The translations under genes were made by a program, and so were the position numbers. The notes under the pieces were generated by a model, which ran no database searches, had not been told where the DNA came from, and was given only the letters and a program-made list of their open reading frames with translations. 64,000 nt of DNA. It comes from Lysobacter sp. GTDB taxonomy: Bacteria > Pseudomonadota > Gammaproteobacteria > Xanthomonadales > Xanthomonadaceae. Positions 1 through 60,299 of this stretch are shown piece by piece (position 1 is the first letter of the stretch; each line of letters starts with the position of its first letter). Location of the stretch: the NCBI GenBank assembly GCA_013141175.1, contig JABFRN010000001.1:3864001-3928000 (forward strand), in the 5' to 3' direction.

Positions 1-3000
1 GCCGTGGCGATCGCAACCGTTTCCATCGGCAGGGTTTCCGCCGGCGCCTCTTCCCGGGTGGGCAGTTGGCTTTCGACATAGGCGCCGAGCGCGTCGATGT
101 TCGCGTAATCGTAGACCCGGGTCGCCGCGATATTGATCCCGAGCCCCTTGTTGATGCTCTTGACCCACTCCACGCCGACGATCGAATCCAGGCCGAGATC
201 GACGAACGAGCGATCGTTGTCGATGCTCGACTCGTCGAGATACAGCGCCTGCGAGAGCGTGCTTTTCAGGAACGCGAGCACGTCATCGCGACGACGCGGC
301 TTGGCCGTCGTCTTCGCCGGTGTGACCGCGACCGGCATCGGTGCGGGCATCGGTGCGGGCATCGGTGCGGGCATTGGCGCCGCGATCGACTGCGGGCTGC
401 GCGTGACCGCCAGCGGGGCCGAGATCGCATGTTCGAGCGCCGCAAGCCGCGAAGCAGAGGGCTTCGGCAACGCGACGCCTGCGGCGGGCGGCAGTGCCGT
501 CAATTCGGCCAGCGCCACCGCATTCGGCTTGGACAGGCTCACCGCCGGCATCGTTTCGAAGAATGCATCCGCGCTCTGCAACTGCGCAAAAGAGTGCACG
601 GCCGATGGCGTGGATGCGGCTCCGGCAAGCACTGCCGAGACCGGCACGAAACCGCGCCAGCGCAGACAGAGGTTGCCGTTGGCGTCGCACCAGTCCATGT
701 CCCAGGCCGCAGCGTGTTCGTCGTGCCAGCGCACCCAGACCCGCATGCTTGGCGTGCACGCCGACACGATGTCCAGCGATTCGATCGTGCCCGGCGTCGA
801 CGCGTCGACGCCCAGCGCCGTCGCGGCGGTCTCCAGCACCGCCTGCACGAGCGCCGGATGCAGCAGGAAGTCGCCGGCCTGGCCGGCGCCGGTATCGGCA
901 TCGACCGCGATCAACAATTCCTGTGCGCCCCGCCACAGACGCCATGCGGCGTGCGGATGGCCGGTGGGCGATGGCGCAGGCTGAAGGCGCATGGCCAGCG
1001 CATCGACATCGAGTCTTGCGGTCGAGGCGGACGCCAGGACGCGGCCGGTGCCCTGCGCTTGAACGCGCTCATCGACGCCGCTGTAGATGTCGAAGTCGAT
1101 CGCGTCGTCCGTCGAGGGATACAGCGCGATGTGCAGCGCGCTCGCGCCATCGGCAACGAACGGCGTACCGAAGCGCAAAGCACGCAGTTCGATCGTCGTC
1201 GTGGTCGCATGGCCGCGCTGTGCCTGCACCAGCGCCGCGCACGCCATTTCAAGCAGCGCTGCGGACGGCAAGCCGGCGGCAGCGGGCATCCTTCCGAGGA
1301 AAGGTTCATTGCCGCTGAGCACCGACGAGAAGCGCAGTTGGCCCAGGTCCGAGGTGTTGTCGTGCAGCAGCGGATGGAGGGTGGCGCGCGCAGCGGCGTG
1401 CCCCGGCGCGACGGGCGGGTGCGTGTCGAGCGGGAACAACCCCACCATCGGGTCGATCCAGTATTTTTCCTTTGCGAACGGATACGTCGGCAGATGCATG
1501 CGACGCGGTTTTGCGCTGCCGTGGAACTTCTGCCAATCCAGGTCGAAGCCTTTGACCCACAGGTCGACCAGCTTCGCCAGCTTGCCCTGCGCGATCCATT
1601 TGTCGACCGCTTCGTCGTATTCGGGATCGGCGGCGAACAGGCTCAACATCTCCTTGTTCGCCTTGACCTGGCCACGGAAGCCGCTGCCGAGGTCGCCACC
1701 CAGCCAGGCGCGCAGCGCGTCCTGCAACTGCGCCGCCGAATCGACGACGAAGCCGAGGCGTTCATCCATCGCGTCGCGACCGATCTGCAGCGTGTACGCC
1801 AATACGCCGTGATCGACGCTGCGGCCGTCCGCGCTCTGCCCATCGAGGAAGGCCAGCAGATCCTGTGCCTTCTGCGTCAACTGCTCCGGCGTGCGCGCCG
1901 AGAGCGGCACGATCGCCGGCAGGCCCGGGAACGCTCCTGCCGCCGATTCGGCGGCGATGTATTCCTGGATGACGAAGTGCGCATTCGATCCGCCCGCGCC
2001 GAACGACGACAGACCCGCGATCCGCGGCACGGCTTTGCCATCGACGACCGGCGCATCCCAGTCGTGCAATCGCTGATTGACGATGAACGGCGTGCGCTCG
2101 AAGTCGATGTTCGGATTCAGTCGTTCCGAGTGCAGCGACGGCACGATCTGCCGATGCTGCATCTGCAGGATCACCTTGGTCAGCCCGGCGATGCCGGCCG
2201 CCGACTCGCAGTGACCGATGTTCGATTTCGCCGAACCGAGCATGCAGAACTGCGTATCGGACGTGTTCTGCTGGAACGCCTTGCTCAGGGCCACGATTTC
2301 GATCGGGTCGCCCAGCTTGGTGCCGGTGCCGTGCGCTTCGATGTAGCTGACATGGCGGGCATCGACGCCCGATTCCAGCAATGCGTCGGCGATCACCGCC
2401 GCCTGCGCCTGCGGATTGGGTACCGTGTAGCCGTTGGTCTTTCCGCCGTGGTTGAGCGCGCTGCCGCGGATGATCGCGTGGATCGCATCGCCGTCGCGCT
2501 CGGCGTCGGACAGGCGCTTCAATATCGCCACGCCCACGCCTTCGCCGGGAATATAACCGTCGCCGCCTTCGCCGAAGCTCTGGCAATGGCCCGAGGTCGA
2601 AATGAACTGCCCCGCGCTCAGCATGCTGTATTTGTCGGGATGGATGCTGAGGTTGACGCCGCCGGCCAGCGCCATGTCGGTGCGGCCATGCCTCAGGTCC
2701 TGGCAGGCGAGATGCATCGCGGTCAACGACGACGAGCACATCGTGTCCAGCGTCATGCTCGGCCCGTGCAGGTTCAGCACGTACGACACGCGGTTGGCGA
2801 TGCTGGCGAGGCTGCCGGAGCGGTTGTATTCGCCGTACATCACGCCGGCGTAGACACCGACCTGTCCCGGCAAGCCATTGCCGTGCGGAATCCGCAGGCT
2901 CTTGCGCGAGTAACCTGCGTCTTCGATCGCCATCCACGCATGCTGCAGGAACATGCGTTCCTGCGGATCGATATACGGCGCCTCGCGCGGCGAGACGTTG

Positions 3001-6000
3001 AAGAACTGCGGGTCGAACTCGTCCGCACCGACGATGAATCCGCCCCACTTGCTGTAGTGGCCGCGTTGTTCGCGGTCGTCGGTGTAGTAGCTTTCCCAGC
3101 GCCAACGTTCGGCCGGGATCTCGACGATGCAGTCCTTGCCGTCGCGCAGGTTGCGCCAATAATCCTGCAGCGTTTCCGCTTCGGGATAACGGCCGCTCAA
3201 ACCGATCACCGCGATCGGCTCCGGATGCCCCGACTGGCTGCGTCGCGCCATGAATGCGGGCGCCGCCGACTTGCCGCGCAATACGGCCTTGGCCTCGGAG
3301 CGTTGGGTATCGCGCGTCGGCACGATGGCCCGCGACGCTGGCGCGGCGGCAGGCGCCGTTGCTGGCGTGCCCGCGGGGTTCAACAGCGCCTGCAGCGTGG
3401 CTTCATGCGCCCGCACGAGGTGTTCGCTGAGCGCTTCGATCGTCTGGTATTCGAAGAACAGGGTTTTCGGCAGCGGCCCGAAGTGTTTCTCGAGCTGGCT
3501 GGTCAGGTTCATCGCCAGAATCGAATTGATTCCGTAGTTTTCCAGCGCCTCGTGGATGTCGATCTGCGCCGCCGCGATCTTCAGGACGGGCGCGAACTCC
3601 CTGCGCAGGAACTCCCGCGCCTGTGCCAGGAGATCGCCGGCCACCGGCATCGCTGCAGGCCGTTCGACTTGCGGCGGTGCGGGCGCGGCAGGTTTTGCGG
3701 CGACGCGCGCCGCCGGAGCATCGAACAGGCGACGCAGTCTGCGGCCATCGCCTTCGACCGCCAGCACCTGGTCGTGATCGCTCAAGAGCGCCCGGCACAG
3801 CACCGCGATACCGGATGCGGTACGCATCGGCGTCATCCCGGTCTGCGCCTGCAGCCATTGCAGGGTCCCGGCCTCGGGACGCATACCGCCGTCCTGCCAG
3901 AGCGGCCAGTTGATCGCGATCGTCTTGCCGCTGCGCAACTGTTGCGACGCCAGCTGCGTGCGATAGCGGGCGAATGCATCCATGAAACCGTTGGCCGCGG
4001 CGTAATCGGCCTGGCCGACATTGCCGAACACCGACACGCCCGAGGAAAACAGTGCGAAGAAATCCAGGTCCAGATGCCGCGTCGCCGCATCCAGGTGCCA
4101 GGTGCCCTGCACTTTCGGAGCCAGCACTCCGGCCATCTCCTGCGCGGTCTTCTTCAGGATGACGTTGTCGTTGCGCGCGCCTGCGCAGTGAAGAATGCCG
4201 CGGATCCTGCCGATCCCGGCCTGGATGTCTTCGATCGTCGAGACGCAGCGGTCGGGATCGTTGAGATCCAGCGCGCGGTAATGCAGTCGCGCTGCAAACC
4301 CGGATTCGTCGAGCCGCTGTTGGATCGCGGCATCCAGCGGCGAGCGTCCGGTGAGCACGACCTGCGCATGCTGCGCGCTGCCCAGGATGTCCTGCGCGAA
4401 CACATGGCCCAGGCCACCCAGTCCGCCGGTGATGACATAGATGCCGTCTTCCTTGTACGGATGCTCGACGTGGCCATCGCTCCAACCCGGGAGCGTCTTC
4501 CAGTTCAGCGAACGCCATTCGTCCGCGCGGCACTGGATCGGCGAGAGATGCGACTGGCTGCCCGCATGCGTCAGCTGTTCGGCGAGCTGGCGGGGCGATG
4601 CCTGCGCCTCGACGATCACCAGTTGCGCGGTCAGCGCCGGATTCTCCAGCGCCGCGGTCTTCAGCATCGCGCCCAGGCCGCTGGACAGCAAAGCGTCCGG
4701 CGTGTTCTGGACAACGCACTGGACGAGCGCGGTCTGGACGAGCGCGGTTGCGCCGGCCTGCTGTTTCATTACCGACTGCAGCTGATCGAAGACCTGCAGC
4801 GCGATGGCCTGATAGCGCGAGGCCGGATCACCGGCGTTCTCGGGTGATGCGATGGTTTCGATCTGGTGCTTGGGCAGCGCCGAAGCCAGCGCGACAGGAT
4901 CGATGCCGGTCGGATCGCAGAGCAGCACGCGGCTGTGCGCGAAAGCCGCAGCAGCGGCATTCGCTTCGCGCGGGCGATACGCCGCCCATTCGGGGACCGC
5001 AACCACGGTTTCGGCCGTCGCGGCTTCGGACAGTCGGATGGCCGCGCTTTTCGCATCGAAGCGGCGCGCGCGGAAACCGCGCATCTGCACGCAGATCGTG
5101 CCGTCCGGATCGCAGAGATCGAGATCCAGCACCAGCTGGTTGTCGCCATCGCCCGCCGACTCGACGCGGCGGATGAAGGCGTGCAGCGCTTGCGGGCATT
5201 CGCCGAGGATGCACAGCGATTCCAACGCGAACGGCAGCATCGGGTCGGTCGGCAGTACGCCGCGATCGCCCAGTCCGATCGCCGCCTGAAGGGCGCTGTC
5301 GATCAGGGACGGGTGCAGCAGGTAGGCGGCATTGTCTTCGCCCGCGAGCGCGTCCGGCAGCGAGAGCTCGGCCAATACCTGGGCTTCGCCGCTGTCGAGC
5401 TGCACGATCCCGCGATGCGCGGGACCGTATTCGATCCCGACCTGCGCATAGGTGTCGTAGATCGAGGTCGAATCCCAATGCTCGCGCCGCATGCGCTCGC
5501 GAATGCCGGCGAGATCCAGCGAGGCGGTCTCGACGGCATCGTAGAAGCGCGCGCGCCCGGAGGCATGGTCCATGCTGTTGCCGGCCGCGTCCTCGCTGAA
5601 CACGCGGAACGCAAGGCAGTCCTCCTCCGCATCGATATCGATGCAGACATCGCGCCCGTCCTCGACGACGAGCGGCATCAGCCACAGCACGTCCTCGAAC
5701 GCGATCAGCGACGTCGCCGCGAGATCGGGAACGGCATCCGCGATCGCGGCCCTGGCCATCTCGAGGTAAGCGACGCCGGGCAGGACGCTGGCGGCAAAGC
5801 CATCGCCCATCCTGACCCGATGATCGCGCAGGAAGAATTCCGCGCCGCTCAGGTGCGAGCGGTAGCGCTGCTGCGTCAGCGTCGAGACATTGCGATGCAC
5901 GAGCGGGTGCAGGCGCACGCTGTCCGTGGGACGCCCGAGGAACTGCTGCATGAGTTCCAGCGCGCCGGCCTTCGCCAGACGCTTGCTTTTCAGCTCGGAA

Positions 6001-6026
6001 ACCACGTATTCGACAAAATCTACCAT
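1..6026 (-). CDS. Trans-AT polyketide synthase D (DH-KR-ACP-KS-DH0-ACP...), cut by left edge
   Basis: The ATG at 6026 opens a frame that stays open to position 1 (about 2008 residues visible; C-terminus missing). Residues 1-30 form a helical docking segment. DH at about 30-320 has an HxxxG...P-type motif (DHRVRMGDG near 69) and HPSLIDSALQ near 243, so it looks active. KR at about 350-770 has YVITGGLGGLG and Tyr in GQADYAAANG. ACP (about 835) has the unusual site GINSI, with Asn before the pantetheine Ser. KS at about 938-1500 has DTMCSSSL, EAHGTGT and SNIGHCES, then the LPTYPFAKEKYW linker; no AT follows, the trans-AT hallmark. A DH-like fold at about 1545-1800 lacks the catalytic His and Asp. 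A Pro/Ala/Met linker leads to an ACP at about 1947 with DSIVGVEW, the DSxxxxxW flag of beta-branching ACPs. DH-KR-ACP completes module 7 begun by the KS at the end of protein C; the rest is module 8. It lies 34 bases after gene C, same operon. Confidence 0.93.
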   Translation of the reverse strand, partial: MVDFVEYVVSELKSKRLAKAGALELMQQFLGRPTDSVRLHPLVHRNVSTLTQQRYRSHLSGAEFFLRDHRVRMGDGFAASVLPGVAYLEMARAAIADAVPDLAATSLIAFEDVLWLMPLVVEDGRDVCIDIDAEEDCLAFRVFSEDAAGNSMDHASGRARFYDAVETASLDLAGIRERMRREHWDSTSIYDTYAQVGIEYGPAHRGIVQLDSGEAQVLAELSLPDALAGEDNAAYLLHPSLIDSALQAAIGLGDRGVLPTDPMLPFALESLCILGECPQALHAFIRRVESAGDGDNQLVLDLDLCDPDGTICVQMRGFRARRFDAKSAAIRLSEAATAETVVAVPEWAAYRPREANAAAAAFAHSRVLLCDPTGIDPVALASALPKHQIETIASPENAGDPASRYQAIALQVFDQLQSVMKQQAGATALVQTALVQCVVQNTPDALLSSGLGAMLKTAALENPALTAQLVIVEAQASPRQLAEQLTHAGSQSHLSPIQCRADEWRSLNWKTLPGWSDGHVEHPYKEDGIYVITGGLGGLGHVFAQDILGSAQHAQVVLTGRSPLDAAIQQRLDESGFAARLHYRALDLNDPDRCVSTIEDIQAGIGRIRGILHCAGARNDNVILKKTAQEMAGVLAPKVQGTWHLDAATRHLDLDFFALFSSGVSVFGNVGQADYAAANGFMDAFARYRTQLASQQLRSGKTIAINWPLWQDGGMRPEAGTLQWLQAQTGMTPMRTASGIAVLCRALLSDHDQVLAVEGDGRRLRRLFDAPAARVAAKPAAPAPPQVERPAAMPVAGDLLAQAREFLRREFAPVLKIAAAQIDIHEALENYGINSILAMNLTSQLEKHFGPLPKTLFFEYQTIEALSEHLVRAHEATLQALLNPAGTPATAPAAAPASRAIVPTRDTQRSEAKAVLRGKSAAPAFMARRSQSGHPEPIAVIGLSGRYPEAETLQDYWRNLRDGKDCIVEIPAERWRWESYYTDDREQRGHYSKWGGFIVGADEFDPQFFNVSPREAPYIDPQERMFLQHAWMAIEDAGYSRKSLRIPHGNGLPGQVGVYAGVMYGEYNRSGSLASIANRVSYVLNLHGPSMTLDTMCSSSLTAMHLACQDLRHGRTDMALAGGVNLSIHPDKYSMLSAGQFISTSGHCQSFGEGGDGYIPGEGVGVAILKRLSDAERDGDAIHAIIRGSALNHGGKTNGYTVPNPQAQAAVIADALLESGVDARHVSYIEAHGTGTKLGDPIEIVALSKAFQQNTSDTQFCMLGSAKSNIGHCESAAGIAGLTKVILQMQHRQIVPSLHSERLNPNIDFERTPFIVNQRLHDWDAPVVDGKAVPRIAGLSSFGAGGSNAHFVIQEYIAAESAAGAFPGLPAIVPLSARTPEQLTQKAQDLLAFLDGQSADGRSVDHGVLAYTLQIGRDAMDERLGFVVDSAAQLQDALRAWLGGDLGSGFRGQVKANKEMLSLFAADPEYDEAVDKWIAQGKLAKLVDLWVKGFDLDWQKFHGSAKPRRMHLPTYPFAKEKYWIDPMVGLFPLDTHPPVAPGHAAARATLHPLLHDNTSDLGQLRFSSVLSGNEPFLGRMPAAAGLPSAALLEMACAALVQAQRGHATTTTIELRALRFGTPFVADGASALHIALYPSTDDAIDFDIYSGVDERVQAQGTGRVLASASTARLDVDALAMRLQPAPSPTGHPHAAWRLWRGAQELLIAVDADTGAGQAGDFLLHPALVQAVLETAATALGVDASTPGTIESLDIVSACTPSMRVWVRWHDEHAAAWDMDWCDANGNLCLRWRGFVPVSAVLAGAASTPSAVHSFAQLQSADAFFETMPAVSLSKPNAVALAELTALPPAAGVALPKPSASRLAALEHAISAPLAVTRSPQSIAAPMPAPMPAPMPAPMPVAVTPAKTTAKPRRRDDVLAFLKSTLSQALYLDESSIDNDRSFVDLGLDSIVGVEWVKSINKGLGINIAATRVYDYANIDALGAYVESQLPTREEAPAETLPMETVAIAT
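334..381. repeat. Four-copy 12-base tandem repeat in gene D
   Basis: GGCATCGGTGCG is repeated at 334, 346 and 358, with an imperfect fourth copy at 370. It encodes a repeated Pro-Met-Pro-Ala linker before the last visible ACP. Likely a flexible interdomain hinge, prone to slippage. Confidence 0.85.
2077..2864. repeat. Near-identical KS DNA repeat, copy in gene D (other copy 13043-13830)
   Basis: This part of the module 8 KS aligns without a gap (constant offset 10966) to part of the module 6 KS in gene C, with only scattered substitutions over 788 bases; several stretches longer than 60 bases are identical. It indicates recent duplication or gene conversion between the two KS domains. Confidence 0.9.
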
Positions 6027-6060
6027 AACGTCCGTTCTCTCATGATTTTGTGCCGCTGTC

Positions 6061-9000
6061 CTACGCCAGGGATTTCACGCGCTCGACCACCTGGAGGGTG
6101 GTCAGCCTGTCGAGCTCCAGCTCGGTGAAAAGTTCGGCGATGGCGTCCAGGTGATTGACGAACGGTCCGTGCTGCGCGGGCTGCGCTGCCGCACCCACGC
6201 TGGCCTTCGATGGAATCCAGCAACGGATGCGCGCGAATGAATATGCCGGCAGGTGCATCAGCGGAACCGTCTTCGCGCCGTCGTCCGCATCGGCGCCTTC
6301 ATCGGCGATGGCCGACTGGCGATAACCCTGTTCGCGGATGTCGGCGACCTTTTCCTGCAGCAGCGGATGGAGATGCTGCGGCTTGTGCTCGCGGCTGGCG
6401 GTCGCTGTCGAGTACCCGCTTTCGCTGGGAGTGATCCAGTAAGCGTCTTCCGCGAACGGATACTGCGGCAGCGCGATCACGCCGGGCCTGTCCGCGCCGT
6501 ACAGCTTGCGCCAATCCAGCGACAGCCCCTTCACCCACAGCTCGCACAGTTTCGACAGATTGCCGTCGGCGATGCACTTGCCGATGACCAGTTCCGTCAT
6601 CCCGGCGTCCTCGCTCAACAGCCGAACGCTTTCCAGACCCTGCTTCACGTGCGCGGCGAACAGGTCGGCCGGCATCGGTTTCGCCGACTCGGTCCGCACG
6701 ATGTATGCATTCAACCGGTCGACGACGTCCTGCATGTCGTGCGCGACGAAGCACAGTCTTTCGTCCATCGCATCGCGGTGCACCTGCAGACTGTGGCTCA
6801 AAGCGACCAGCGGAAGATCCGGACGGGCCTGCACGAAATCGAGCAATTGCCTGGCTTTCCGCAGCAACTGCTCCGCTGTGCGCGCCGACAAGGGAACGAC
6901 TGCGCCGATCTCCGGACGGACCGGCATGGCGGCCGGCTGCGGCAGCTTCGGCATGTATTCGCCCAGGACCAGATGCGCGTTGGTGCCGCTGAAACCGAAC
7001 GAGCTGATCGCGGCATGGCGGGCGACGCCCGGCGGCGTGGTCCACTCCTTCAGCGCCGTGTTGACGTAGAACGGACTGTCGGCGAGATCGAGATGTTCGT
7101 TCGGCTTCTCGAAATGGATGCTCGGTGGCAACTGCCGGTGCTTCAGCGCCAGCAGCAGCTTGATGAAGCCGGACACGCCCGCCGCCGTCAGGCAATGACC
7201 GATATTGGTCTTGACCGAACCGATGGCGCAGTAGTGCTTCCTGTCCGTCGACGGACGGAACGCGGCGTTCAGCCCTTCGATCTCGATCGGGTCGCCTAGC
7301 TTGGTGCCGGTACCGTGCGCTTCGATCAACTGGATCTGATTCGGGTCCAGCCCGAACCGGTCGTAGACGTCCATGATCAGGTGCTGCTGCGATTCGGCGT
7401 TCGGCGCGGTGATGCCGTTGCTCCGGCCATCCTGGTTGATGCCCCAGCCGCGGACCACCGCCAGGATCGAATCGCCGTCGCGCTCCGCGTCCGCCAGGCG
7501 CTTCAGCATGATCACGCCGACGCCCTCGCCCGGCACGAAACCATTGGCGCGCTGATCGAACGTGTAGCAGCGTCCGCTCGGCGACAGCATGCCGGCGTGG
7601 CCGGTCTTCAGGAACATGTCGGCGTTGGCCATCACGTACACGCCGCCGGCGAAGGCCAGTTCGGAGGCACCGGTCAGCAGGCTGTCGCAGGCCATCGAAA
7701 TCGCGACCAGCGACGACGAGCATGCGGTGTCGATCGACACGCACGGCCCCTGCAGATTGAGGAAGTACGACAGCCGCGCAGCGAGGATGGAGGTCGCGCC
7801 GCCGGTGAAGCCCAGCGCATTGATCTGCTGTTCGCGCGACAGCAGGTTGTAGTCGCCGTAGGCGCAGCCGACGAAAACGCCGCATTTGCTGCCCGACAGC
7901 CGCTCGGCGGTATAGCCCGCGTTCTCCATGCCATGCCAGCAGCACTGCAGCAGGACGCGCTGCTGCGGATCCATGGCTTCGGCTTCCACCGGAGACAGGC
8001 CGAAGAACAGCGGATCGAACTGATCGTGCCCTTCCAGTACGCCCATCCACTTCGAATTGCTCTGGCCGAGCGAGGCGCGGCCTTCGACGTAATAGGTGCT
8101 GGTGTCCCAGCGCGACGCGGGGATTTCGCTGACGCAGTCGCGGCCGTTGGCGATGTTTTCCCAGAAGGCGTCGAGATCCTTCGCCATCGGGAACGAGCCC
8201 GCCATGCCGATCACCGCGACCTCGGGTGCGTGCGACATCGCGCCCGGCGACGCCGCCAAGGGTTCGATGGCGATGGCGTCCGTCTGCCAGGATCGCAGCG
8301 ACGGCCAGTCGAACTTCTGCACGCCGACAGGCGCTGCGGAAAGCGTCGTCGCCACGGCATGCGTCGCAGGCGGCGCTGCCGGCTGCGCGACCGGATCGAC
8401 CTGCGCGGAACCGCGCTCGACCAGCAGATCGCGCAGATAGCGCGCGAATTTCTCGACCGTGGCATACGTGTAGATCTTGGTCGCCTCGATCGCGGTGCCG
8501 TAGGCCTGATTGATCGCGCGGATCCAGGTGACGCCCGAGATCGAGTCAAGACCCAGTTCCACGAAGCCCCGGTCCGCATCGATGCTGTCGGGTTCCTGGC
8601 GCAGTTCCTGCGCGAGCATGCCGATGATGGCGTGCCTGATCGCACCGAGATCGACCCGGGGCTGTTGCGCCGCGGGTTTCGCGGCCATCGCGACAGGCAG
8701 CGCCGGCCTGGGTGCTGCGGTCGCGGGCTGCGGCGCGGTCGCAACGACAGCCGTCGCGACCACGGCAGGCGCATCCACGGGCAACAGCTCGCCGACGTGC
8801 TGGCCCAGCTTCTGCAGATTCGGGTAGGTGTAGACCTTGGTCGCTTCGATCGCCAGACCGAATTGTTCGTTGATCTTCCTGATCCAGGTGACGCTGGAAA
8901 TCGAATCGAGGCCCAGATCGATGAACGGCGTGCGCACGTCGATCTCGGTCTCGTCGATGCGCAGTTCCTCGGCCAGCAAACGGCGGATCGTCGGCAGGAT

Positions 9001-12000
9001 ATCCGCGCGCGCCGATGCGGCCGGCGCGCGGCGCGGCTCCGCGCTCACGACCGTCGGCTTCGGCTGTTGCAGCGGCGCCGGACGGGATTGCTGCGCGGGC
9101 GTGAAGCGATCCTCGATACGCGACAGCGCATCGGACTGGCCGACCAGCGTGGCTTCGTGCATCTGCACTTCGCGCGCGAACAGCGCCTGCCATGCCGCGA
9201 AACGGTGCGCGGTGCTCGCCGCCTTCCAGGCGACGAGGTCGCTGCGTTCGTGCCGGCTGAACTTCTGCGCGAGCGCCATCGCATCCACCAGGACCCGATC
9301 GCGGGGAACGACGGTCAACAGCGGATTGCGCCGCTTCAGATCGTCGCCCAGCATCTCGCGGCCGGTGAACAGGCTTTCGCGCGCCAGATCCGGGCCAAGC
9401 TTCGCCGGCAAGATGCCGGTGGCGCCAGCACCGGGCGTGAACCCGAAATTCATGTACGGGCTGACGTAGCGACTTTCCTCGCTGAACAGCACGCAGTCGG
9501 CGAACAGTCCGAGCGTCCAGCCAGCACCGATGCCGTGACCCTGCATCGCCGCGACCACCGGCAGCGGACAGCGCATCGCCAGTTGGAAAACATCCAGATC
9601 GGTGAAGCGGACCTTGCCTTCCTGGATCGCCTTCAAACCATCGCGCGTACCGCCGGACGAGAAATACGTGTCGTAACCGACCAGCACGACCGCCTTGTAC
9701 GAGGACGGGCGAGCGAGGCGATCGAACACTTCCTGCAGACCCGCGATCAGCGCGTCCGAGAACATGTTCCTGGCGTCGCGGTCTTCGAGCCGCACCAGGA
9801 CCACGCCATCGGCGTCGACGCTGGCGCTGACCACGGTCGACGACAGTGCGAGCGTCGTTTCGCCCGCCGGTTGCGCACCGGCATGGGCCGCGTCCATCGC
9901 CACGGTCGCGGATTGCCCGCGCTGCTGGATGCGCGCGACGAGCGCCGACTTGTGGCTGAAAACGTCGCGCGGAATCGCGGCCAGTCCATCAACCACCTGC
10001 TGTGCGCCCGCAAGCGCGCCGCCGGCGGAACAGGCGTGCACGGATGGCGAGCGCTGCTGCAGTTCGCGACCGGTTTGCGAGAGACCGGACAGGATCCATT
10101 CGTTGGCGCACACGCCGAGGCGCTGCGCGACGACTTCGTCGAGCATGGGCAGCTGCGCGCGATAATCGTGCAGGGCGAGTCCGCCGTAGCGGCCGTCCTC
10201 GTTGCAGACCGCACGGTCGCAGGCGAGCGCCAGCACGAAGCCGGCATTGAGCGCATTCTTCTCGACGACCGCGACCACCGGCGCGCGCAGCAGCGAAAGA
10301 TCCACGACGACCTGTCGCAGCAAGTCGACGTGTTGCGATGCGTCCTCGGGCAGGAAGGCCTCGAAGTCGCTGTGCAGGAACACTGCATCCGCATCACGGC
10401 ATGCGTTCAACGCCGCGGACAATTGCTGCAGAACGGCGTCGGCTCGCGTCGTTTTCTTCGCCTTGATCCGCACGTGGATCCGGTTGTGGTCGCCCTTGCG
10501 AAGCTCGATGGCCTCATGCCGGGCCGAACCCGTCGCGACCACCGTCTCCGCCGACGCTTCGCCGACCGCATCGAACTGCGCAAGCCGCGCATCGAACCCG
10601 GACACCAGGTGCTGCTTGAGCAACCGCAGTGCGTCCTGCGATTTGTCGGAGAGACTCCGGCACAGGTCATCGACGGCGCTCGAGAGTCGCGCACGCTCGA
10701 CCACCTTGGCGCCCCAACCGATCTGCCGCAGTTGCTCGCCGCTGAAGGGATCGGCATTGGTCGCCAGCAAGGCTGCGACCGATTCGCCGAACCGCGCGGC
10801 CAGCCACGCCATCTGCGAGCGCTGGGTCAGCGCGACGCCATCCTGCGTCGCAAGCCCGTAGACCTGATCGTCGACGGCCACCATGGCATCGCAGGCGCAT
10901 GCGAACCAGAATCCCGCACCGACGGCCTTGCCGGCCAGCACCGCCAGCGTCGGATACGGGAACGACGCCAGTCCACGCCAGAGCGACCGCGTCGCTTCGT
11001 CGTCGAACACAGGGCTGCCGCCGTGCAGGAACACCTGCTCATCGCTTTCGAGCACGAGGGCCTTGATCGACGGCAATTCGCGCGCGTAGTCCAGCGCATC
11101 CCGGAACGCGTCGGCCAGCGCTGCATTCAGCGCGCCATCCACTGCGTCCATGCGCAGGACGAAAATACCGTCGCCGCGATCGCGCACGACGATCGACGCG
11201 CGCTGCCCGGACTCGACGCGGTCGCCTTCGGCGGCCAGCACGACGGCGGGCTTGTTCGCCACACCGGTCCGATCCACGGCGTTGGTCCGATCCGGTGCCG
11301 ACAGCGCGATCGCATTGGGCTTGCCGGGCATCGCTGCGCTTTCGGCGCGTGCTGTCGTCGCTTCGGGATCGGCGGTCGCGGACGCAACGCTGAGGCCGTG
11401 GAACACGCGGTCCGCGATGCGAACAGGCGGCGCGGATCGTTCGGCGCCGCTTTCGACACGCTGCGCTTGGGCGATTTCGACGCGTGGCGATGGCGCATCG
11501 GACGCGATCGCCGCATGCGCCGGCATCAGCGCCAGCGACTCGAGCTGCACGCAGACCCTGCCATCGCCATCGCAGATCGCGATATCCACGCAGAAGGCGT
11601 CGCCCTGCGGATCGGCGGTTTGAATCCATGCATAGCGCGGGTTTTCGCAGCTGCCGTGGATCCGGATGGACGCGATGGAGGCCGGCATGTACAGCGTGCC
11701 GGCTGTCGGATGCAGCCATTGCGCGGCGATCAGCGCGTTTTCGAGGACGCCCGGGGGCAAGAGGCAATCGGAGAACGCATTGCGCGCGGCGTCCGACAGC
11801 TCGAAGCCCAGCAACAGGCCGTGCGCAGTCCGCTGGATCGTCGCGACCGTCCGATACAAGGCGTCGGCTTCGACGCCGATCGAGCGATCGGCCATCGCGA
11901 TCGCCTCCTGGTCCGCGAACAACGGCGATGCGGTGCGCGTCAGCTGGGCGATATCGAGCACGGGCGCGGCGGTATCCGGGCGCGGCTCGGCGAATCCCTG

Positions 12001-16200: not shown

Positions 16201-19200
16201 GACAATAGCCCGAGATCCACGGCTTCTTCGGCCGACATTTCATTGTTGGAGATGCTTTCTAACAATTCCTGATAGAACGCTTCATCGAACATCGGCGTTT
16301 CATCCGATGGAATCACGAAACAAGGGGCTTCGGAAGACACCGCTTTCCGCGCTTCCACGACGCGCCAGGCGAATCCGCGAATGGCCACGCACAGCCTGCC
16401 GTCGGGCGCATGGATCGAGACATTGCAGGTCTCGGTCGCGGCGCCCTTGATCGGGCTGCGCATCGGCGTCAGTACGACGATCGCCTCCGGCGGGCACTGC
16501 CCGTGGATGGTCATCGATTGCAGCGTGAACGGAACCGATGGTTCCTTCGGCAGCGCCTGCAGCGACGGCAGGAAGCCGATGCAGGCCTGCAGCGCCGAAT
16601 CCATCACGCTGGGATGCAGCCAATAGGCATCGCTGTCGCTCGCGCAGGAGGGCAGCGAGACTTTCGCCACGACCGTTCCATCGTCGCGGCAGATCTTGTC
16701 GATGCCGCGGTGCGTGGGACCGTAGTGCAGACCGACCTGGGTGAAGGCCGCATAGATGTCGGCGGCGCGCCAACCTTCGCCGTTCAGTACCGAAGCGAAG
16801 GCAGCGGTATCGACCATCGGCGCGTCGGCGCCGATGAACTCGGCCTCGCCCTGGCAGTGCAGCACCCGCTCGCCGCCGTTTTCGCTGAAGATTTCGCTGA
16901 CGATCTCGAACATGATCGTGCCGGTTTCGTCGACGCCCAGATCGATCGCGACGGTCGTCCGGCCATTCACGATCACGGGCCGCCACCAGGCGACGTTGTT
17001 CAACACCAGTTGCTGCGACACGGCGCGCTCCGGCAACGCATCGGCGATCGCCGCCCGCGCCATTTCCAGATAGGCGACACCGGGCAGGACATGCTCGATG
17101 CGCCCGTCCGCCAGGCGCACGCGATGGTCGCGCAGGAAGGATTCGCTGCCGTCGAAGGTCGTGCGATACCGCTGCTGCATCAAGGTCGAAGCATTGACGT
17201 GCAGCAGCGGATGGATGACCGGTGCCGCGCCCGGGACGTTGCCGGCCGTGGCCGACATGTCGTCCTCCAGCCAGTAACGCTCTTTCGCGAACGGATACAG
17301 CGGCAGTTCGATGCGTCGCCGGGGTTGGTCGGCCGACGGCGCATGGCGATAGAGCTGTTCCCATGCGAGGTCGAGACCGTCGACCCAGAGCTCCGCCAAC
17401 TTGCCCAGTTTGCCGTCGCGCAGGCAGGTGTCGATCAGGGCATCGCGCAGGTCGCCGTCCTGGCCGATGAACGCCAGTTTGTTCGAACGCGACGACGTGC
17501 TGCCGACATGCATGTCGCGCGAGGTTTCGCCGGCCGCGAATGCGCGCAGGCGCTCGACCAGCTCGCGCATGGAGCTCACGACGGTCGCGCAGCGCTCATC
17601 CATGGCCTCACGGCCCACCTGCAGGGTGTAGGCCACATCGGAGAGCGACAGCGAGGCTTCGTTGCGGACGATGAAATCGGCCAGCTCCCCGGCCTCTTCC
17701 CGCAGTTGTTCCCGCGACTTCGCCGACAGCGGGACCATCACCGCCGGCGTCGAGGGTGCATGACGCTTCGTTTCCGAGGAAAGCTCCGGGCCCGCTTCCA
17801 GCACCAGGTGCGCATTGGTTCCGCTGAATCCGAACGAGCTCACCACGCCGAGTCGACCGCCCTTGGCATTGACCGGCCAGGGTTTCAACGCGGTATTGAT
17901 CACGAACGGACTGTCGGCGAGATCGAGATGCTCGTTCAAGCGCTCGAAATTGGCGGCAGGCGGCAACTGGCGGTGTTTCAGGGCCAGCACCAGTTTCAGC
18001 ACGCCGGCCACGCCAGCGGCATACAGGCAATGGCCGACATTGCTCTTGACCGACCCGAGCACGCAGTACTCCGCTTTCTGCGTGTAATGGCGGAAGGCGT
18101 TGTTCAATCCTTCCACTTCGATCGGATCGCCCAGCGGGGTGCCGGTACCGTGCGCCTCGATCAGCTGGATGTCTTCCGGATCGATGCCGAACTTGTCGTA
18201 GATGCTGCGCATCAGGCGCGTCTGCGAGACCGGGTTCGGGGCGGTGATGCCGTTGGTCTTGCCGTCCTGGTTGATGCCCCAGCCGCGGATCGTCGCGTGG
18301 ATGATGTCGCCGTCGCGCTCGGCGTCGGCCAGTCGCTTCAGCATCACCACGCCGACGCCTTCGCCCGGAACGAATCCGTTCGCGCGGTGATCGAAGGCGA
18401 AGCACCGGCCGTCCGGCGACAACATGCCGGACTGCGCGGTCTTGATGTGCATCATCGGGCCGGCCATGACCGCGACGCCGCCGGCCAGCGCGATGGCGCA
18501 ATCGTGGCTGGCGAGGCTGTCGCAGGCGTTGGCGATGGCGACCAGCGACGACGAGCAGGCGGTATCGATCGCGATCGACGGCCCCTGCAGATTCAGGAAG
18601 TACGAGATGCGCGCGGCGAGGATCGACATCGCCGCGCCGGTGAACCCCTGCGTGCTGTAGCGGTGCTCGCGCGAGCGCTGGTGATAGTCGGTCGCGCCGC
18701 AACCGACGAACACGCCGCAGCGGCTGCCCGAGAGGGTACGCGGGTTGATCGCGGCGTTTTCGATCGCGTGCCAGCAGGTCTGCAGCAGCAGACGCTGCTG
18801 CGGGTCCATGCTTTCGGCTTCGGTCGGCGAGATGTTGAAGAACAGCGGGTCGAAGGCATCGCAATCCTCCAGCGCGCCCATCCAGCGGCTGTTGGTGGTG
18901 CCGGACACCGAGATGTCTTCGTTGAAATAGGCGTTGATGTCCCAGCGCTTCGACGGCACCTGGTCGATGCAGTCCTTGCCGCCTGCGATGTTCCGCCAGA
19001 ATTCGTCGAGATTCTTCGCGTGCGGGAATTGTCCGGCGATACCGATCACGGCGATCGCATCGGTGCCGAGCCTCGGCGACCCACGATGCCGCGTCCGCCA
19101 CGAAATCAACTTGCGCCGCTGCGTTGCGCCCGTACGCGCGACGGCCGCGACCGGCCGTTGGACGTGAACGACAGGCGCCTGCTCGCGCCGGGGCGCGGAC

Positions 19201-22200
19201 GGCGATCCGGCCTGCGCCGGCAGCGATGCGCCGATGAAACGGGCGAACTCGACCAGCGTCGGATGGCTGTAGACCTTGGTGGCTTCGATCTTCGTCAGGT
19301 ACTTGGCGTTGATCTTGCGCACCCAGGTGACGCCGGTGATCGAATCCAGGCCCAGTTCGACGAACTGCCGGTCCTCGTCGATGTCTTCTTCCGGCATGTG
19401 CAGTTCCTGCGCGAGCAGGCTCTTCAGCTCCCGCAGCAGATCCCTGCCCGCTTCTGCCGGCGCGGCAGCGACCACCGGCTCGACAGCAGCGCTCGCGGGC
19501 ACTTGCGGCTGCGCGGCGGGCACCGTCTGCGGCGCGACCTGGACACGCGGGCGGTCGGCAGCCTGTGTCGACGCCTGCGCCGACACGCGTTCATGCACGA
19601 ATTCGCAGAACTGGCGCAGCGTGGGATGGCTGTAGACCTTGGTCGCTTCGATCTTCGTCAGGTACTTGGCGTTGATCTTCCTGACCCAGGTGACCCCGGT
19701 GATGGAGTCGAGGCCGATATCGACGAACTGCGCGTCCTCATCGACGTCGCCGATCTCCATCTGCAGTTCGGCGGCGAGCAGCGACTTGAGATCCTCCGCC
19801 ACGGCCGCGGCATCCACGGTCGTGGACGATGGCATCGCGGGCGATGGCACGGCGGCAGGCGCCGATGATGCCTGCGCCGCAGGTTCAACCGTCGCGACGG
19901 CGGCGGGTTGATCGCCGGTCAGGAAGTGCGCCATGACACCCTGCATGGCGTGCTGCTGGCCGACGAAACTCTGGTCGTGCATCGCCAGCTCGCGATCGTA
20001 CGTCTCGTCGAGCACTGCCAGCCAGCGCGCGCCGAAATGGCGCTTCAACGCGATCAGGTCCTCGCGGCCACGCGTCGCCAGCGCGTCCGCAAGCGCCAGC
20101 GCCTGCGGCATCAGCTCGCTGCGTGCGAGACAGCGATGGGACAGGCCCTTCGCCTTCAGCTCGCTGCCGGAGTATTCGGTGGCGGTGAACAGCGATTCCT
20201 TGGCCAGATCGACGCCCAGCGTCGCCGGGAAAATCAGCGTGGAGCCGGCGCCGGGGGTGAAGCCGTACTGCATGTACGGGCTGATGTAGCGGCTTTCGGC
20301 GCTGAACATGCAGATGTCGGCGAACATGCCGAGCGCCCAGCCGCCGCCGATCGCGTGCCCCTGCATCGCGGCGATGACCGGCAGCTTGCAGCTCATCGGC
20401 AGCTGGTAGATCTTCGCGTCGGTGAACTTCGCGGTGCCCTGCTGGATCGCAAGCAGGCTTTCGCGGGTGCCGCCGCAGGCGAAATAGGTGTCGTAGCCGC
20501 ACAGCACGACGACGCGATGGTCGTCGGACGCTTCGATGTGCGCGAACACGTCCTCCAGCCCCTGGATGATCTCCGGGGAGAACATGTTCTTGGCCTGGCG
20601 ATCGACCATGCGCACGACGAACACGCCGTTGTCGTGGACTTCGGTTTCGATCGCGCTCGATGCGGAGACGAACGTCGAAGCCGGGCGTTTTCCCGCTGCG
20701 GCGTCGCCGGCAGCGGGCAGGCCGGCGGCGGCCTGTCCGTCGGCGCGCGCTGCCGCTTCGCGCATCCGCCATTGCTGGAACACCGTCGGCGACCGCAGCG
20801 GGAAGGATGCGGCGATCGCCAGCGCCTTCGCCAGGACCTCGCTGGCGCCACCGGTCGCGACGATGCCGGCGCATGCCACCAGTTCCGCACCGGAGACCGC
20901 CGCCGTATCGAACAGGATCCTTTTCGCCAGGCGCTCGCCGAATCGACGGTCGAACCGCAGGGTCGCCTGCTGCAGCAGCGTCGGATGCCGCCACAGCGCT
21001 TCCGTCGAATACCGGCCGCTGTCGAGATGGACGCAGGCATCGCCGCTCAGGCCGAGCAACCAACCGGGGCCATCGGCATCGTGTTCGAAGGCCGTGATCA
21101 CCGGCACCGGGAAGGACGACAGTGCGGCCTGCAGTGCGGTCAGTTCCGACTCGCCATCGGTGTCGATCGGCGGCAGGAAGCCATCATGCTCGCTGCGGAT
21201 GACGAGCGCCGCGTAGCCGCTGGACTGCGCGAGATCGTCGAGCGCGGCGCGCAGGTTGCGCAGCAGCGCGGACGGGTCCGCACCGCTGCCGAACAGGCGA
21301 AGCGAAACGACGGACGCCGACAGCATTTCGACCGCAATGCCTTCGCGTGCGACCCACGCATCGAGCGACAGCGTCGGGCGCTGGGGCTGCGTTGTCGCGT
21401 CCGGTTCCTGCGTCGACGAGCCGGTCGCGCCGAAACCGGTCGTGCCGAAACCAGCCACATGCTGCTGCCATGCGCTGGCCAGATGCGTTTTCAGCAGGCG
21501 CAGGGCTTGGCCGGGCTTTTCGGCCAGCGTCCTCGCGAGCGTCAACGCGGTCGACAGCGCCTGCGCACGGTCGGCGATCGGGAACGTCCAGCCCTTCGCC
21601 GACATCGAGCGACCGTCCTGGGCGCCTCCGATGTAGAGCAGATCGTTGGCCAGAGCCGCGCCGAAACGGGCCGCGAAGAAGTCGCTTTCCACCGGCGTCG
21701 CATGCACGCCCGACTGCGGATCGGAGAAGCCGTATCGCGATTCGCGGCTGCAGATCATGAAGTCGCAGATTGCGCCGAGCAGGAAGCCCGCACCGCTGGC
21801 ATCGCCCTGCATGACGGCGATGGTCGGAATCGGGAGATCGAGCACGGCCCGATACAGGCCCGCGCTCGCCGCCTGGTCGATCGCAGGACGATCGCCGTGC
21901 AGGAAATCCGTCTCCGATCCGGTGATCAGCAGCGCCTTCGCATCCGTGCGCAGTTGCACGGCCTGCAACGCCTGACGCAGGTGATCCAGAGCGGCGCCGT
22001 CCAGCATGTTGCGTTCGATGGCGATCGACAGAACGCCATCGCCATGGTCGTGGATGCTGACGCACGATGACTGCGCATCCGCAGCGGAAGCCGCGCCGGG
22101 TGCCGACAGGGAAATCGTGGGACGCGCCACGCGCTTCGCATCGCTGCTGTCGCCGGCATCGCCGAGGACGCTCGGTGCGATCGCCCTCAGGGCGATGGTG

Positions 22201-25200: not shown

Positions 25201-26770
25201 GCGGATGATGCGGCAGCAACGGGCATCTGGCCTTTCGCCGCAAGGACAGCGACCAGCGTCTCGCGATCGTTGTCGAGGAAATGCCGCACCAGGCCATCGA
25301 TGCTCTTGACTTCGAAGAACAGCGTGCTGCGCACGCTCGGGAACAGTTTGCGGAAATGGGTCGTCAGCTGGACGACCAGGATGCTGTCGAGGCCGTAGCT
25401 TTCGAGCGCCGCGTGCGGTTCGATTTCGCGCGCATCCATCTTCAGCGCGCCTGCGATCACGTCGCGGAACAGCGCGATGGACGCTTGGCGCAGCGCCGCA
25501 TCGTCGGTGACCGCCGCGTTCGCCGGGATCGACGATTGCGTCGGCGCGGACGGTACGGATACCGCCGCCGGTGCGACTGCGACCGGGGCAGCCGCAGCCA
25601 TGGCGCGCGCGGGCGGTTTCGGCGGCAGCGCATGGGCGACCAGACGCTGCCTCACGACGCCGTCGCTGCTCGCGACGATGATCTGCTGGCCCAGCCCGTG
25701 CTGGTCCTTCGCGGGGAATCCGATATCGAAATAGCGTTCGGCCTTCAACAGGCTTTCCCACTGCGCCGGCGACAAGCCGGGGCTGCCGGGCAACCGCAGG
25801 TTCTCGTCCTCGTACAACCACCAGCCTTCGAGCAGCCCGAACGTGAAATGCGTGTACCACGACCAGTCGCTGATCTCGTTGACCAGCAGCAGGCCGTTGC
25901 GCTTCAGCGCCGCTTTCGCATTGCGCATGGTCTCGCGCATGTTCGAGGTCGCGTGCAGCACGTTGGTGGCGATCACCACGTCGTAGCTGTTGGCGGGTAC
26001 CGCTTGCCCGGCCAGCGGTTTGCCGACATTGAAGATGGCGGTCCTGATCGCCGGGAACTGCGGCTGGTAGACATCCTCCGCATGCAGCAGGAACGCCTTC
26101 GACAGATCGGTGTAACAGTATTCCTCGATGGCATCGCCGAACTCGCGCAGCATCGGCAGCAATGCGGCGGTCGTGCCGCCGGTGCCGGCGCCGATCTCGA
26201 GCAGACGGATGCCGCGCTCGCCGCGCGCGACCTTCGCGGCCAATGCGGCGCGCAGGCTTTCGCCCAACACCCGGTTGAAATGATCGGCGACGAGATTGTG
26301 CTTGTAGATGCCCTCGACCATGTGCATCGAGGATTCCGGGAACATCACGTCGGTCGCGGGCACCGCGTCGGTCAGGATCTCCGGCAGGCTGCGCAGGCAC
26401 GCTTCGATCAGCGTGAGGTAGGCGCGATGGTTGGCGTTGTCGTGCCACGCGGGCTTGGCCGCGTCCCAACGCTGCCACAGGGCGTCGACGGACGCCATCG
26501 TGACGAACCTGTGGCGCTGCGTCGCCGCATCGATGTCGAGGCGTCCCTGCTGCGCGAGGTAACGCAGCGTCGCGCCCAGCCAGCGCTGGTACAGCGGCCC
26601 GAGCTTCTCGAAGCATTCGGCCGGCGCGCACTCGCCGTTGGCGTCGGCGAACAGCGCGCGCAGCTGCGCGGCGACGATCGTGGACGCCAGCTGCTCGGCT
26701 TCGACCGGCAGTTTCGCGGCCTCCAGCTCGGCGGCGGAGAAACCGTGCTGTCCGTGTGTTTTCGGTGGAT

Positions 26771-26774
<4 letters not shown>
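16197..26774 (-). CDS. Trans-AT polyketide synthase B (cMT-ACP-KS-DH0-ECHx3-ACP-ACP-KS-DH)
   Basis: I place the start at the ATG at 26774 (3525 residues), which overlaps the stop of gene A as ATGA; the frame is open further upstream to 27035, but that stretch lies inside gene A. Order: C-methyltransferase (about 100-350, LLEIGAGTGGTT near 190); ACP (Ser about 462, YGLDSILVV); KS (about 580-1165, VDSACSSSL near 734); DH-like domain (about 1180-1465) with Gln in place of the catalytic His and no Asp; three crotonase-fold ECH domains (about 1565-1775, 1800-2010, 2035-2285), the third with GYDTYFACGGT and AMQGHAIGGGW; two near-identical ACPs (Ser about 2357 and 2478), both DSITGVTW, flagging beta-branching; KS (about 2571-3156, IDTACSSSL near 2739); DH (about 3190-3490) with DHRVRLADG and HPSVMDSALQ, probably active. 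The last 25 residues look like a docking helix pair. cMT-ACP completes module 3, then beta-branching module 4, then the start of module 5. Confidence 0.95.
19261..19729. repeat. Tandem repeat of the two beta-branching ACPs in gene B
   Basis: Bases 19261-19366 and 19624-19729 are nearly identical at a 363-base spacing and encode the cores of the twin ACPs, both with DSITGVTW and the following helix. Recent in-gene duplication. Confidence 0.85.
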
Positions 26775-39778
<13,004 letters not shown>

Positions 39779-44478: not shown

Positions 44479-45321
44479 TCAGGTTTCCGGCGAAAAGGCC
44501 TGGGCGGCACGACCGGGATGGAAATCCGATGTTTTCAGGAATTCAGGCACCAGTTGCACCTCACTGGCCAGTGGGGTGAATTTACGCATCGAGATCGTGG
44601 GTGATGCGCCGGCGTTGCGCTCGGCGCAGATCGCCATCACGTAATCGACCGTCGGCCGGCACTGCCAGAAGCTCCAGCGCCCGGCATGGTCGTCCAGGTC
44701 GGGCTGGATGCTGATCCGCACCGCGTCATGATGCGGAAAATCGAAGCTGAAACGGTCCAGGGGCAGCGAAAGCCCCATGCCGCGCGCCTTGATGTACGAT
44801 TCCTTGAAGGTCCAGTATTCGAAAAAGCGATCCAGCTGTCGTTCCGTCGGAACGCAAGACAGTTCCGCGACTTCGGTGGGGGAGAAAAAGCGTTCCGCGA
44901 TGCCGATCGATGGGCTCCGCACCGCGACGTTTTCGACGTCCACGCCAAATTCCCGGCCACGACCCACCGCCAGCGCGATGAGCCCGCGCGTATGCGAGAT
45001 ATTGAAGGACAGGCCACGCACCTCATCCACCGCGTTGGCGATCTCCGGTCGGCCGTATGCGTTCCTGGAGAATTCCCAACACTCCGGTGCGACCGGTGCG
45101 TAACGCGACAACAGCATGCGCACCGCTGCGCGCGTGACCAGATAGCGTTTGCGGTCGTCGGCGAAGAAGAATCGACCTTCCTTGTCCACTTCTTCCGCAT
45201 TGAGCAACGCGCGGAGCATGACAAGTTGATCCTCGTCGACGATCTCGTCGTAATAGATCAGCCAGATATCGATATCGCGCTTGCCGGTTTCTACGCCGGC
45301 AGGGACCATTGGTTCATCCAT
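44479..45321 (-). CDS. 4'-phosphopantetheinyl transferase, Sfp type
   Basis: 280 residues. Transfers phosphopantetheine from CoA to the Ser of carrier proteins. Family motifs are present in order: FNISHTRGLIALAV, FGVDVENV and WTFKESYIKARGMGLSLPLDRFSF (within about residues 100-185), giving the Mg-binding Asp/Glu residues and the catalytic region. The length is slightly above Sfp because of about 40 extra C-terminal residues. Its place between the PKS locus and the polyamine genes suggests it activates the many ACPs of proteins A-D, although such enzymes can also serve other pathways. The start at 45321 has no clear ribosome site; an in-frame ATG at residue 5 is an alternative. Confidence 0.92.
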   Translation of the reverse strand: MDEPMVPAGVETGKRDIDIWLIYYDEIVDEDQLVMLRALLNAEEVDKEGRFFFADDRKRYLVTRAAVRMLLSRYAPVAPECWEFSRNAYGRPEIANAVDEVRGLSFNISHTRGLIALAVGRGREFGVDVENVAVRSPSIGIAERFFSPTEVAELSCVPTERQLDRFFEYWTFKESYIKARGMGLSLPLDRFSFDFPHHDAVRISIQPDLDDHAGRWSFWQCRPTVDYVMAICAERNAGASPTISMRKFTPLASEVQLVPEFLKTSDFHPGRAAQAFSPET

Positions 45322-60191: not shown

Positions 60192-60299
60192 GGTGGCCCC
60201 GTCGGCCCCTCGCGACGCTAGATCGAAAACTCCGCCAGGGCCGGAAGGCAGCAACGGTATCGGTCGATGCGGGTGCCGAGGTCAGCCGGCGGGGCCATC
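60192..60299 (+). ncRNA. ffs: 4.5S / small signal recognition particle RNA
   Basis: The apical domain CCAGGGCCGGAAGGCAGCAA matches the conserved SRP RNA loop bound by Ffh, the GTGCCGAGGTC strand follows, and the ends GGCCCC (60195-60200) and GGGGCC (60291-60296) pair. The length of about 108 bases fits the bacterial 4.5S class. Guides membrane-protein translation with Ffh/FtsY. Confidence 0.95.

Follow-up and report, generated by a model that had tools for sequence, protein, structure and literature searches.

A Trans-Acyltransferase Polyketide Synthase of Lysobacter sp. Predicted to Assemble a Beta-Methyl-Branched Polyene

Organization of the locus

The complete genome of Lysobacter sp. (4,155,120 bases; NCBI GenBank assembly GCA_013141175.1, contig JABFRN010000001.1) contains a large polyketide synthase (PKS) locus, the module programme of which is the subject of this work. 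The window, by which we mean the whole 64-kb stretch that was analyzed, spans positions 3864001-3928000, and its left flank was added down to 3784001. Coordinates below are those of the window, negative values lie past its left end, and transcription runs from right to left. Four colinear PKS genes on the minus strand (A-D) are followed on the left by three more (E-G). Domain labels come from hidden Markov models (HMMs) built from this cluster and anchored by Pfam and Protein Data Bank matches, and the names given to the hotdog, MMPL, and AT2 genes are our own reading. The domains are acyl carrier protein (ACP), ketosynthase (KS), ketoreductase (KR), dehydratase (DH), C-methyltransferase (cMT), enoyl-CoA hydratase-like (ECH), acyltransferase (AT), and thioesterase (TE) domains; DH0 denotes a DH without catalytic His, ACPw an ACP with a Trp flag, and M1 to M13 the modules.

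39778-26771, minus strand: gene A, GNAT-ACP / M1 KS-KR-ACP / M2 KS-KR-ACP / M3 KS-DH-KR (Pfam and domain scan)
38306..39778, minus strand: N-terminus of gene A, CurA-type GNAT loading domain and ACP, putatively for an acetyl starter
26774-16197, minus strand: gene B, cMT-ACP (end of M3) / M4 KS-DH0-ECHabc-ACPw-ACPw / M5 KS-DH
16200-6061, minus strand: gene C, KR-ACP (end of M5) / M6 KS-DH0-ECHabc-ACPw-ACPw / M7 KS
6026 to -7083 (1..6026 inside the window), minus strand: gene D, DH-KR-ACP (end of M7) / M8 KS-DH0-ACPw-ACPw / M9 KS-KR-ACP / M10 KS-DH
Left of the window: gene E, DH-KR-ACP (end of M10) / M11 KS
Left of the window: gene F (locus L009), ACP-DUF-SH / M12 KS-DH-KR-ACP / M13 KS-DH
Left of the window, after F: gene G, ACP-KS-ACP-TE, then an MMPL exporter

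None of the seven PKS reading frames is interrupted across the ~65 kb of coding sequence, and the assembly line extends 33 kb past the window as far as the TE. Thirteen KSs have the Cys-His-His set, and a last one, in gene G, is without one His; it is probably non-elongating, since it reads EVDGYAT where EAHGTGT is expected. The cluster has 14 of the 15 RhiE-like linkers found genome-wide, and between genes E and F lie genes for HMG-CoA synthase (HMGS), ECH1, ECH2, an ACP, AT1, AT2, and a hotdog protein. With no in-line AT and with AT1 and AT2 as separate genes, the domain content is that of a complete trans-AT PKS. The start of gene A matches CurA (2ree) at an E value of 3.3e-45 in phmmer, and KS1 is closest to the KSs of other GNAT-start lines; Pfam gave no GNAT match for this loading domain. 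An earlier, sequence-only reading had placed the whole programme at 1-26774. That interval does hold M4-M7, and M8 as far as its first ACPw, but M1, M2, and KS3-DH-KR are in gene A (26774-39778), and the second ACPw of M8 and KS9 lie beyond the window.

Predicted beta-branching modules alternate with DH-KR modules

M4 and M6 share the arrangement KS-DH0-(ECH x3)-ACPw-ACPw, and M8 is KS-DH0-ACPw-ACPw without the ECH insert. Exactly one KS-DH-KR-ACP module, M5 or M7, stands between successive members of this series. The elements that mark the branching modules are as follows.

19251..19814, minus strand: tandem beta-branching ACPs of M4, GLDSITGVTW in both
8452..9009, minus strand: tandem ACPs of M6, GLDSISSVTW and GLDSISGVTW
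636..1376, minus strand: DH0 of M8, without catalytic His and with no ECH insert after it
-261..-61, minus strand (outside the window): second ACPw of M8

The flag GLDSIxxVxW, the Trp of which falls six residues past the ACP Ser, is present in 6/6 ACPs of M4, M6, and M8 and in 0/12 of the other in-line ACPs of the cluster. At the catalytic position of the M4, M6, and M8 DHs there is no His, and the same holds for the visible equivalents of these domains in related loci (G008, L011, L012, L013, L017, and L024). The DHs of M5 and M7 retain the His and a DSALQ motif, with ~5 additional residues between His and LPG. These features bear out the earlier proposal that M4, M6, and M8 are beta-branching modules alternating with DH-KR modules.

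We asked whether the alternation arose by simple triplication and rejected this: KS6 and KS8 are 83% and KS5 and KS7 65% identical, yet KS9 is only 49% identical to KS5 and KS7. This low value, together with 61% identity of KS9 to KS3, points to a separate origin for M8. Further down the line, M10 contains two consecutive DHs split over genes D and E (L006/L010), both with intact H and D/Q motifs, and the split is repeated in the related cluster of Lysobacteraceae 2PB (G008). Assigning one of them as a pyran synthase was rejected because both keep these motifs and the ring sizes do not fit; judged by their motifs, double dehydration or isomerization is more likely.

A fused ECH trio with one probable active site

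In M4 and M6, three crotonase-like ECH domains follow the DH0, an insert that was absent from the sequence-only description.

22079-19875, minus strand: fused ECH trio of M4; the third domain (20669-19875) alone is PksI-like with the catalytic His
11205-9046, minus strand: fused ECH trio of M6; the third domain is PksI-like

The third ECH of M4 matches PksI at an E value of 3.2e-61, and PksI, which we take to be the decarboxylase of an endo beta-methyl system (the bacillaene branch type), is its closest counterpart among solved structures. Across our own and related clusters, the last ECH domain keeps the equivalent of PksI His230, GGT, and QGH in 33/33 cases. In the upstream copies GGT or QGH is found in 0/57, and a His in the His230 column in 1/57, that one inside a linker. 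These counts omit domains shorter than 150 aa. Among the 33 are a lone in-line ECH from Eleftheria and a pair from Nostoc, and the middle copy of several trios was either missed by the ECHb HMM or taken by the ECHc HMM. PMC7501309 describes PksI as a trimer in which His230 alone is required and the K80A variant remains active. A structure model of the M4 trio, built with 17 sequences, has a pLDDT of 85.4 and a pTM of 0.87, and its top fold match is PksI; the fold matches mostly span the third domain and do not address the fold of the first two. Most likely the trio works as a crotonase trimer whose units are covalently joined, two copies serving as scaffold and one providing the active site; the pTM of the model is what suggests this packing.

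Trios were found in records named Pseudomonadota, Bacteroidota, Verrucomicrobia, and Acidobacteriota. At E <= 1e-100 they occur in 8/10 other genomes of the genus (the two without, G005 and G006, are both fragmented), in 0/24 genomes from other genera of the family, and in 0/24 of the order. At E <= 1e-60, 1 other of 397 phylum genomes has a match, covering only positions 381-728.

KS domains downstream of the branching modules group with post-branch KSs

We compared 161 KSs from our own and related clusters, from three plasmid-borne reference clusters, those for bacillaene (L094/L101), thiomarinol (L095/L102), and sandarazol (L096), and from four other named plasmid clusters. Each KS was labelled by the domain string of its upstream module rather than by measured substrate, and 41/161 were excluded from the label test (26 with an unclear upstream module, 11 with no visible one, 2 SH, and 2 short). 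For 96 of the 120 labelled KSs, the nearest neighbor from another lineage bears the same label; in 1,000 within-lineage shuffles the number of such matches averaged 35.5 and never exceeded 55. Among KSs that follow a Trp-flag module, 38/39 were matched. The label of beta-hydroxy (KR) KSs was matched in only 2/15, and the test therefore has little power for KS2, KS3, and KS10.

17790..19058, minus strand: KS5, takes the M4 beta-branched chain
6946..8223, minus strand: KS7, takes the M6 beta-branched chain
-1797..-517, minus strand (outside the window): KS9

KS5, KS7, and KS9 all have post-branch KSs as nearest neighbors and group with them. The first two fall in a 28-member clade (support 0.999) of 25 post-branch KSs and 3 with unclear label, and KS9 in a five-member clade (support 0.996), in which it is 66% identical to the bacillaene KS that follows a tandem-ACPw module. 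The clade check suggested with the earlier reading, which would have counted other intermediates against it, thus came out in its favor. KS4 belongs to a nine-member clade (0.994) in which four members, KS4 among them, are alpha-methyl-alkene KSs and the other five have a cMT-ACP visible upstream. For KS6, KS8, KS11, and KS13 the nearest neighbors are alkene KSs.

Predicted chemistry and its alternatives

An acetyl starter would be loaded through GNAT-ACP and then extended. With c_n as the carbonyl and a_n as the alpha carbon of unit n, M3 would form an alpha-methyl alkene, c2=a3(Me). In M4, M6, and M8 the beta-ketone should stay unreduced, since these modules have no KR and a dead DH; the Trp-flagged ACPs would recruit HMGS, which adds an acetyl carbon, and ECH1 would dehydrate the adduct. 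An ECH2-type decarboxylation, by the third ECH of the trio in M4 and M6 and by the free ECH2 for M8, would then give the beta-methyl alkenes c3(Me)=a4, c5(Me)=a6, and c7(Me)=a8, with M5 and M7 each supplying a CH=CH (c4=a5 and c6=a7). From the module order we predict the segment CH=C(Me)-C(Me)=CH-CH=CH-C(Me)=CH-CH=CH-C(Me)=CH, with approximately six conjugated double bonds. Counted module by module, the beta-methyls fall on c3, c5, and c7, with the four-carbon spacing of retinoids. In this respect the earlier claim of a methyl on every fourth carbon, separated by CH=CH, holds for the beta-methyls. It does not extend to M3: the alpha-methyl alkene proposed there agrees with the cMT and with the KS4 clade, but its methyl on a3 adjoins the first beta-methyl carbon, c3, so that the methyl gaps are 1, 4, and 4. 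Downstream, the hydroxyl of M9 may be kept or removed through the two DHs of M10. M11 has no KR, and its enone could accept sulfur (SH or SSH) through DUF-SH, probably by conjugate addition, before two further extensions and release by the TE.

Taken as a whole, we consider it probable that the locus encodes a complete trans-AT PKS that makes a beta-methyl polyene with later sulfur addition and that the trio acts as a fused trimer. We are more tentative, and lean toward doubt, about the fullest form of this proposal, namely a methyl hexaene with retinoid/carotenoid spacing made convergently from acetate, a (hydroper)sulfide added later, and a fused pseudo-trimeric ECH2 with two pure-scaffold copies. 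Several observations weigh against these interpretations, and they are considered here and in the next two paragraphs. The position of PksI Lys80 is occupied by Ala in the free ECH2 and by Arg in the M6 ECHc, though K80A PksI is active. KS3 also falls in the five-member clade of KS9 (0.996), and the other four members all follow beta-branching modules; within this clade the relative placement of KS9, the bacillaene KS, and KS3 has a support of 0.055. Because KS3 was expected to accept the beta-hydroxy product of M2 and sits instead among post-branch KSs, the 1,3-diol start from M1 and M2 that had been proposed is now doubtful; the test is weak for beta-hydroxy KSs in general.

The second set of observations concerns the donor for branching. 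The HMG-CoA synthase cassette, the absence of which would have told against the earlier reading, is present 11-14 kb past the window: HMGS, with HMG_CoA_synt_N and _C both above the Pfam cut-offs, ECH1, ECH2, and a free ACP follow gene E on its left. A decarboxylating KS was not found in the cluster cassette. In four related clusters (G008, G007, G010, and G001) a KS gene stands between the ACP and AT of the cassette, and its loss here could mean that the cluster is decaying, with branching failing and M4, M6, and M8 passing on beta-keto chains or stalling. We regard this as very improbable: the seven PKS frames are open across the ~65 kb, another related cluster (G004) is also without a KS at that place, and the decarboxylase function could be provided by an ACP-KS-AT set at another place in the genome. 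That set lies unlinked at 2053800-2056700 (L103, L114, and L115), and the 4,361-residue open reading frame (ORF) beside it has ACP, KS, and AT matches. Its KS (2054315-2055541), between ACP and AT, has the GGASASG motif common to the free KSs of G008, G007, G010, G001, thiomarinol, Photobacterium, and Eleftheria and not seen in the Methylosinus one; it is 1.8 Mb away, a distance that is itself unfavorable. Judged from gene content, the set at 2.054 Mb may make up for the KS that the main cluster lacks, and the donor-making half of the cassette would then be unlinked from it.

Finally, a beta,gamma or exomethylene product from the trio modules would interrupt the conjugation. The trio is present in M4 and M6 and missing in M8, and the gatekeepers downstream differ accordingly, KS5 and KS7 being in another clade from KS9 at 49% identity; the branch formed in M4 and M6 might then be beta,gamma-unsaturated, exomethylene, or of other geometry, and the product would not be one continuous polyene. 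We consider this unlikely, since ECHc is closest to PksI among solved structures and the modules after the trio modules, M5 and M7, are still DH-KR.

A DUF-SH module in the second half of the line

Five modules (M9-M13) come after M8, one of them with a leinamycin-type DUF-SH. Gene F carries the corresponding LPG_synthase_C/DUF2156 and Beta_elim_lyase didomain. Its SH domain matches 9cen at an E value of 6.1e-63, a record that we take to be a leinamycin-type SH domain although its title reads only "Polyketide Synthase Protein". The Lys of an S-K-D-F stretch, presumably the PLP lysine, is retained. Large reading frames bearing SH occur in 7/10 other genomes of the genus; outside it, 4/48 genomes have SH matches of only ~30%, in frames of 463-591 aa. 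Domains of the DUF-SH kind were counted in 109 clusters by April 2021 (PMC8479088), and it has been proposed that leinamycin-type DUF and SH domains put sulfur on the chain in the way suggested here (PMC8479088 and PMC7618002).

Two side observations concern this region. The M12 DH motif reads HLVSDIPTLP, with Asp in place of the Gly of HxxxGxxxxP, as it does in G008, and a contig of G004 (C32) has a second DUF-SH-type match within a 4,114-residue reading frame.

Related clusters

The gene B architecture was also found in Steroidobacter gossypii, Lysobacter sp. ISL-50, Pseudomarimonas arenosa, a Lysobacter metagenome-assembled genome, and Lysobacteraceae 2PB. The matching KSs of S. gossypii, ISL-50, and P. 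arenosa, which we treated as outside the genus, are 78-87% identical. Genes B to G have the same order in 2PB, but M1-M2 and the GNAT start are missing, and gene A is replaced by a KS-DH-KR gene located between F and G, ahead of which lies an ORF that we read as an AMP-ligase. As 2PB keeps B-G and starts differently, the polyene core probably predates the start found here, and the transfer from KS-DH-KR to cMT-ACP appears to be conserved. In four other clusters of the same genus (G001, G004, G007, and G010) the DUF-SH gene, the ACP-KS-ACP-TE gene, and the exporter are also present, but two consecutive branch modules precede the alternation. Trio modules alternating with one DH-KR module also occur in Fulvivirga L014 and in Steroidobacteraceae L016 and L018; the Fulvivirga ACPs are without the Trp by the pattern used. 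Separately, L015, G002:C12, and L021 are trio PKSs with two adjacent branch modules, an order that would space the methyls two carbons apart.

These relatives bear on whether the product is a described metabolite or a simple variant of one, such as a polyketide of Lysobacter or a cuniculene-group compound of Aquimarina. Aquimarina muelleri DSM 19832 (L022) carries ECH trios, and the species is reported to contain the cuniculene cluster (PMC9323603). A layout like that of gene F is present in F8TUA6 of Lysobacter sp. ATCC 53042 (PMC3870968), and PMC11451712 reports two trans-AT PKS clusters with no known product, each of them in more than one Lysobacter genome. On the other hand, the 13 kb A. 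muelleri fragment that was examined has a different module order as far as it is visible and could belong to another cluster than that for cuniculene. We therefore hold identity with a described metabolite to be distinctly unlikely. Janthinopolyenemycin was considered as the product and set aside.

Flanking genes

40247-40747, minus strand: NusG paralogue in the UpxY/LoaP/RfaH group, immediately upstream of gene A (NCBIfam UpxY, 119.8 bits against a cut-off of 100)
44479..45321, minus strand: phosphopantetheinyl transferase (NCBIfam HetI-type, under the cut-off)

By its family and position, the NusG paralogue is a probable antiterminator of the ~76 kb cluster; Rfam at the gathering threshold gave no match near gene A. 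NusG matches also lie close to the DUF-SH genes in G004 and G007. Genes matching the phosphopantetheinyl transferase adjoin several related clusters. At the right end of the window are a tmRNA (62803-63156) and a small SRP RNA (60199-60295), both ordinary.

Comparison with known systems

Trans-AT lines, HMGS branching, DUF-SH domains, a gene F-like layout, and uncharacterized Lysobacter trans-AT PKSs are already known, the last from PMC11451712. Neither the alternating programme joined to DUF-SH nor a conserved fused trio with two eroded copies was found described in the open-licence PMC literature searched, which is weak evidence for novelty. If the proposal is true, a programmable polyketide line makes an isoprenoid-like methyl spacing, and the visible chromophore would report module engineering. 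Branching modules with and without a trio in one line allow one to ask what sets the branch geometry, and the catalytic His pattern of 33/33 against 1/57 gives a testable proposal for how a crotonase works in cis. A fused trio would be a new way to place an obligate-trimer enzyme in a dimeric megasynthase, and the DUF-SH module here would extend sulfur-installing PKSs to a polyene scaffold.

The closest parallel for the branching is the Bacillus velezensis cluster L094, the compound of which we take to be bacillaene. It has in common with our cluster the HMGS cassette, the tandem Trp-flag ACPs, and the post-branch KS related to KS9. It differs in having one branching module and no fused trio, where three alternating modules are found here. 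The ECH2 decarboxylases PksI and CurF are single-copy enzymes, whereas here two degenerate copies are fused ahead of the PksI-like domain; the in-line ECH-ER tandems of the cylindrocyclophane type in cis-AT lines are a different arrangement (PMC9582728). For the sulfur module, the comparison is with the DUF-SH (thiocysteine lyase) PKSs of leinamycin, guangnanmycin, and weishanmycin and with Lysobacter F8TUA6. The didomain is homologous to that of LnmJ. In leinamycin, however, the order is a terminal KS-ACP-ACP-DUF-SH-TE (PMC7618002), whereas gene F reads ACP-DUF-SH-KS-DH-KR-ACP-KS, its sulfur module being internal with one ACP and no TE, and the line ends with a TE in the next gene. In its layout, ACP-DUF-SH-KS-..-KR-ACP-KS, gene F resembles F8TUA6 (PMC3870968).

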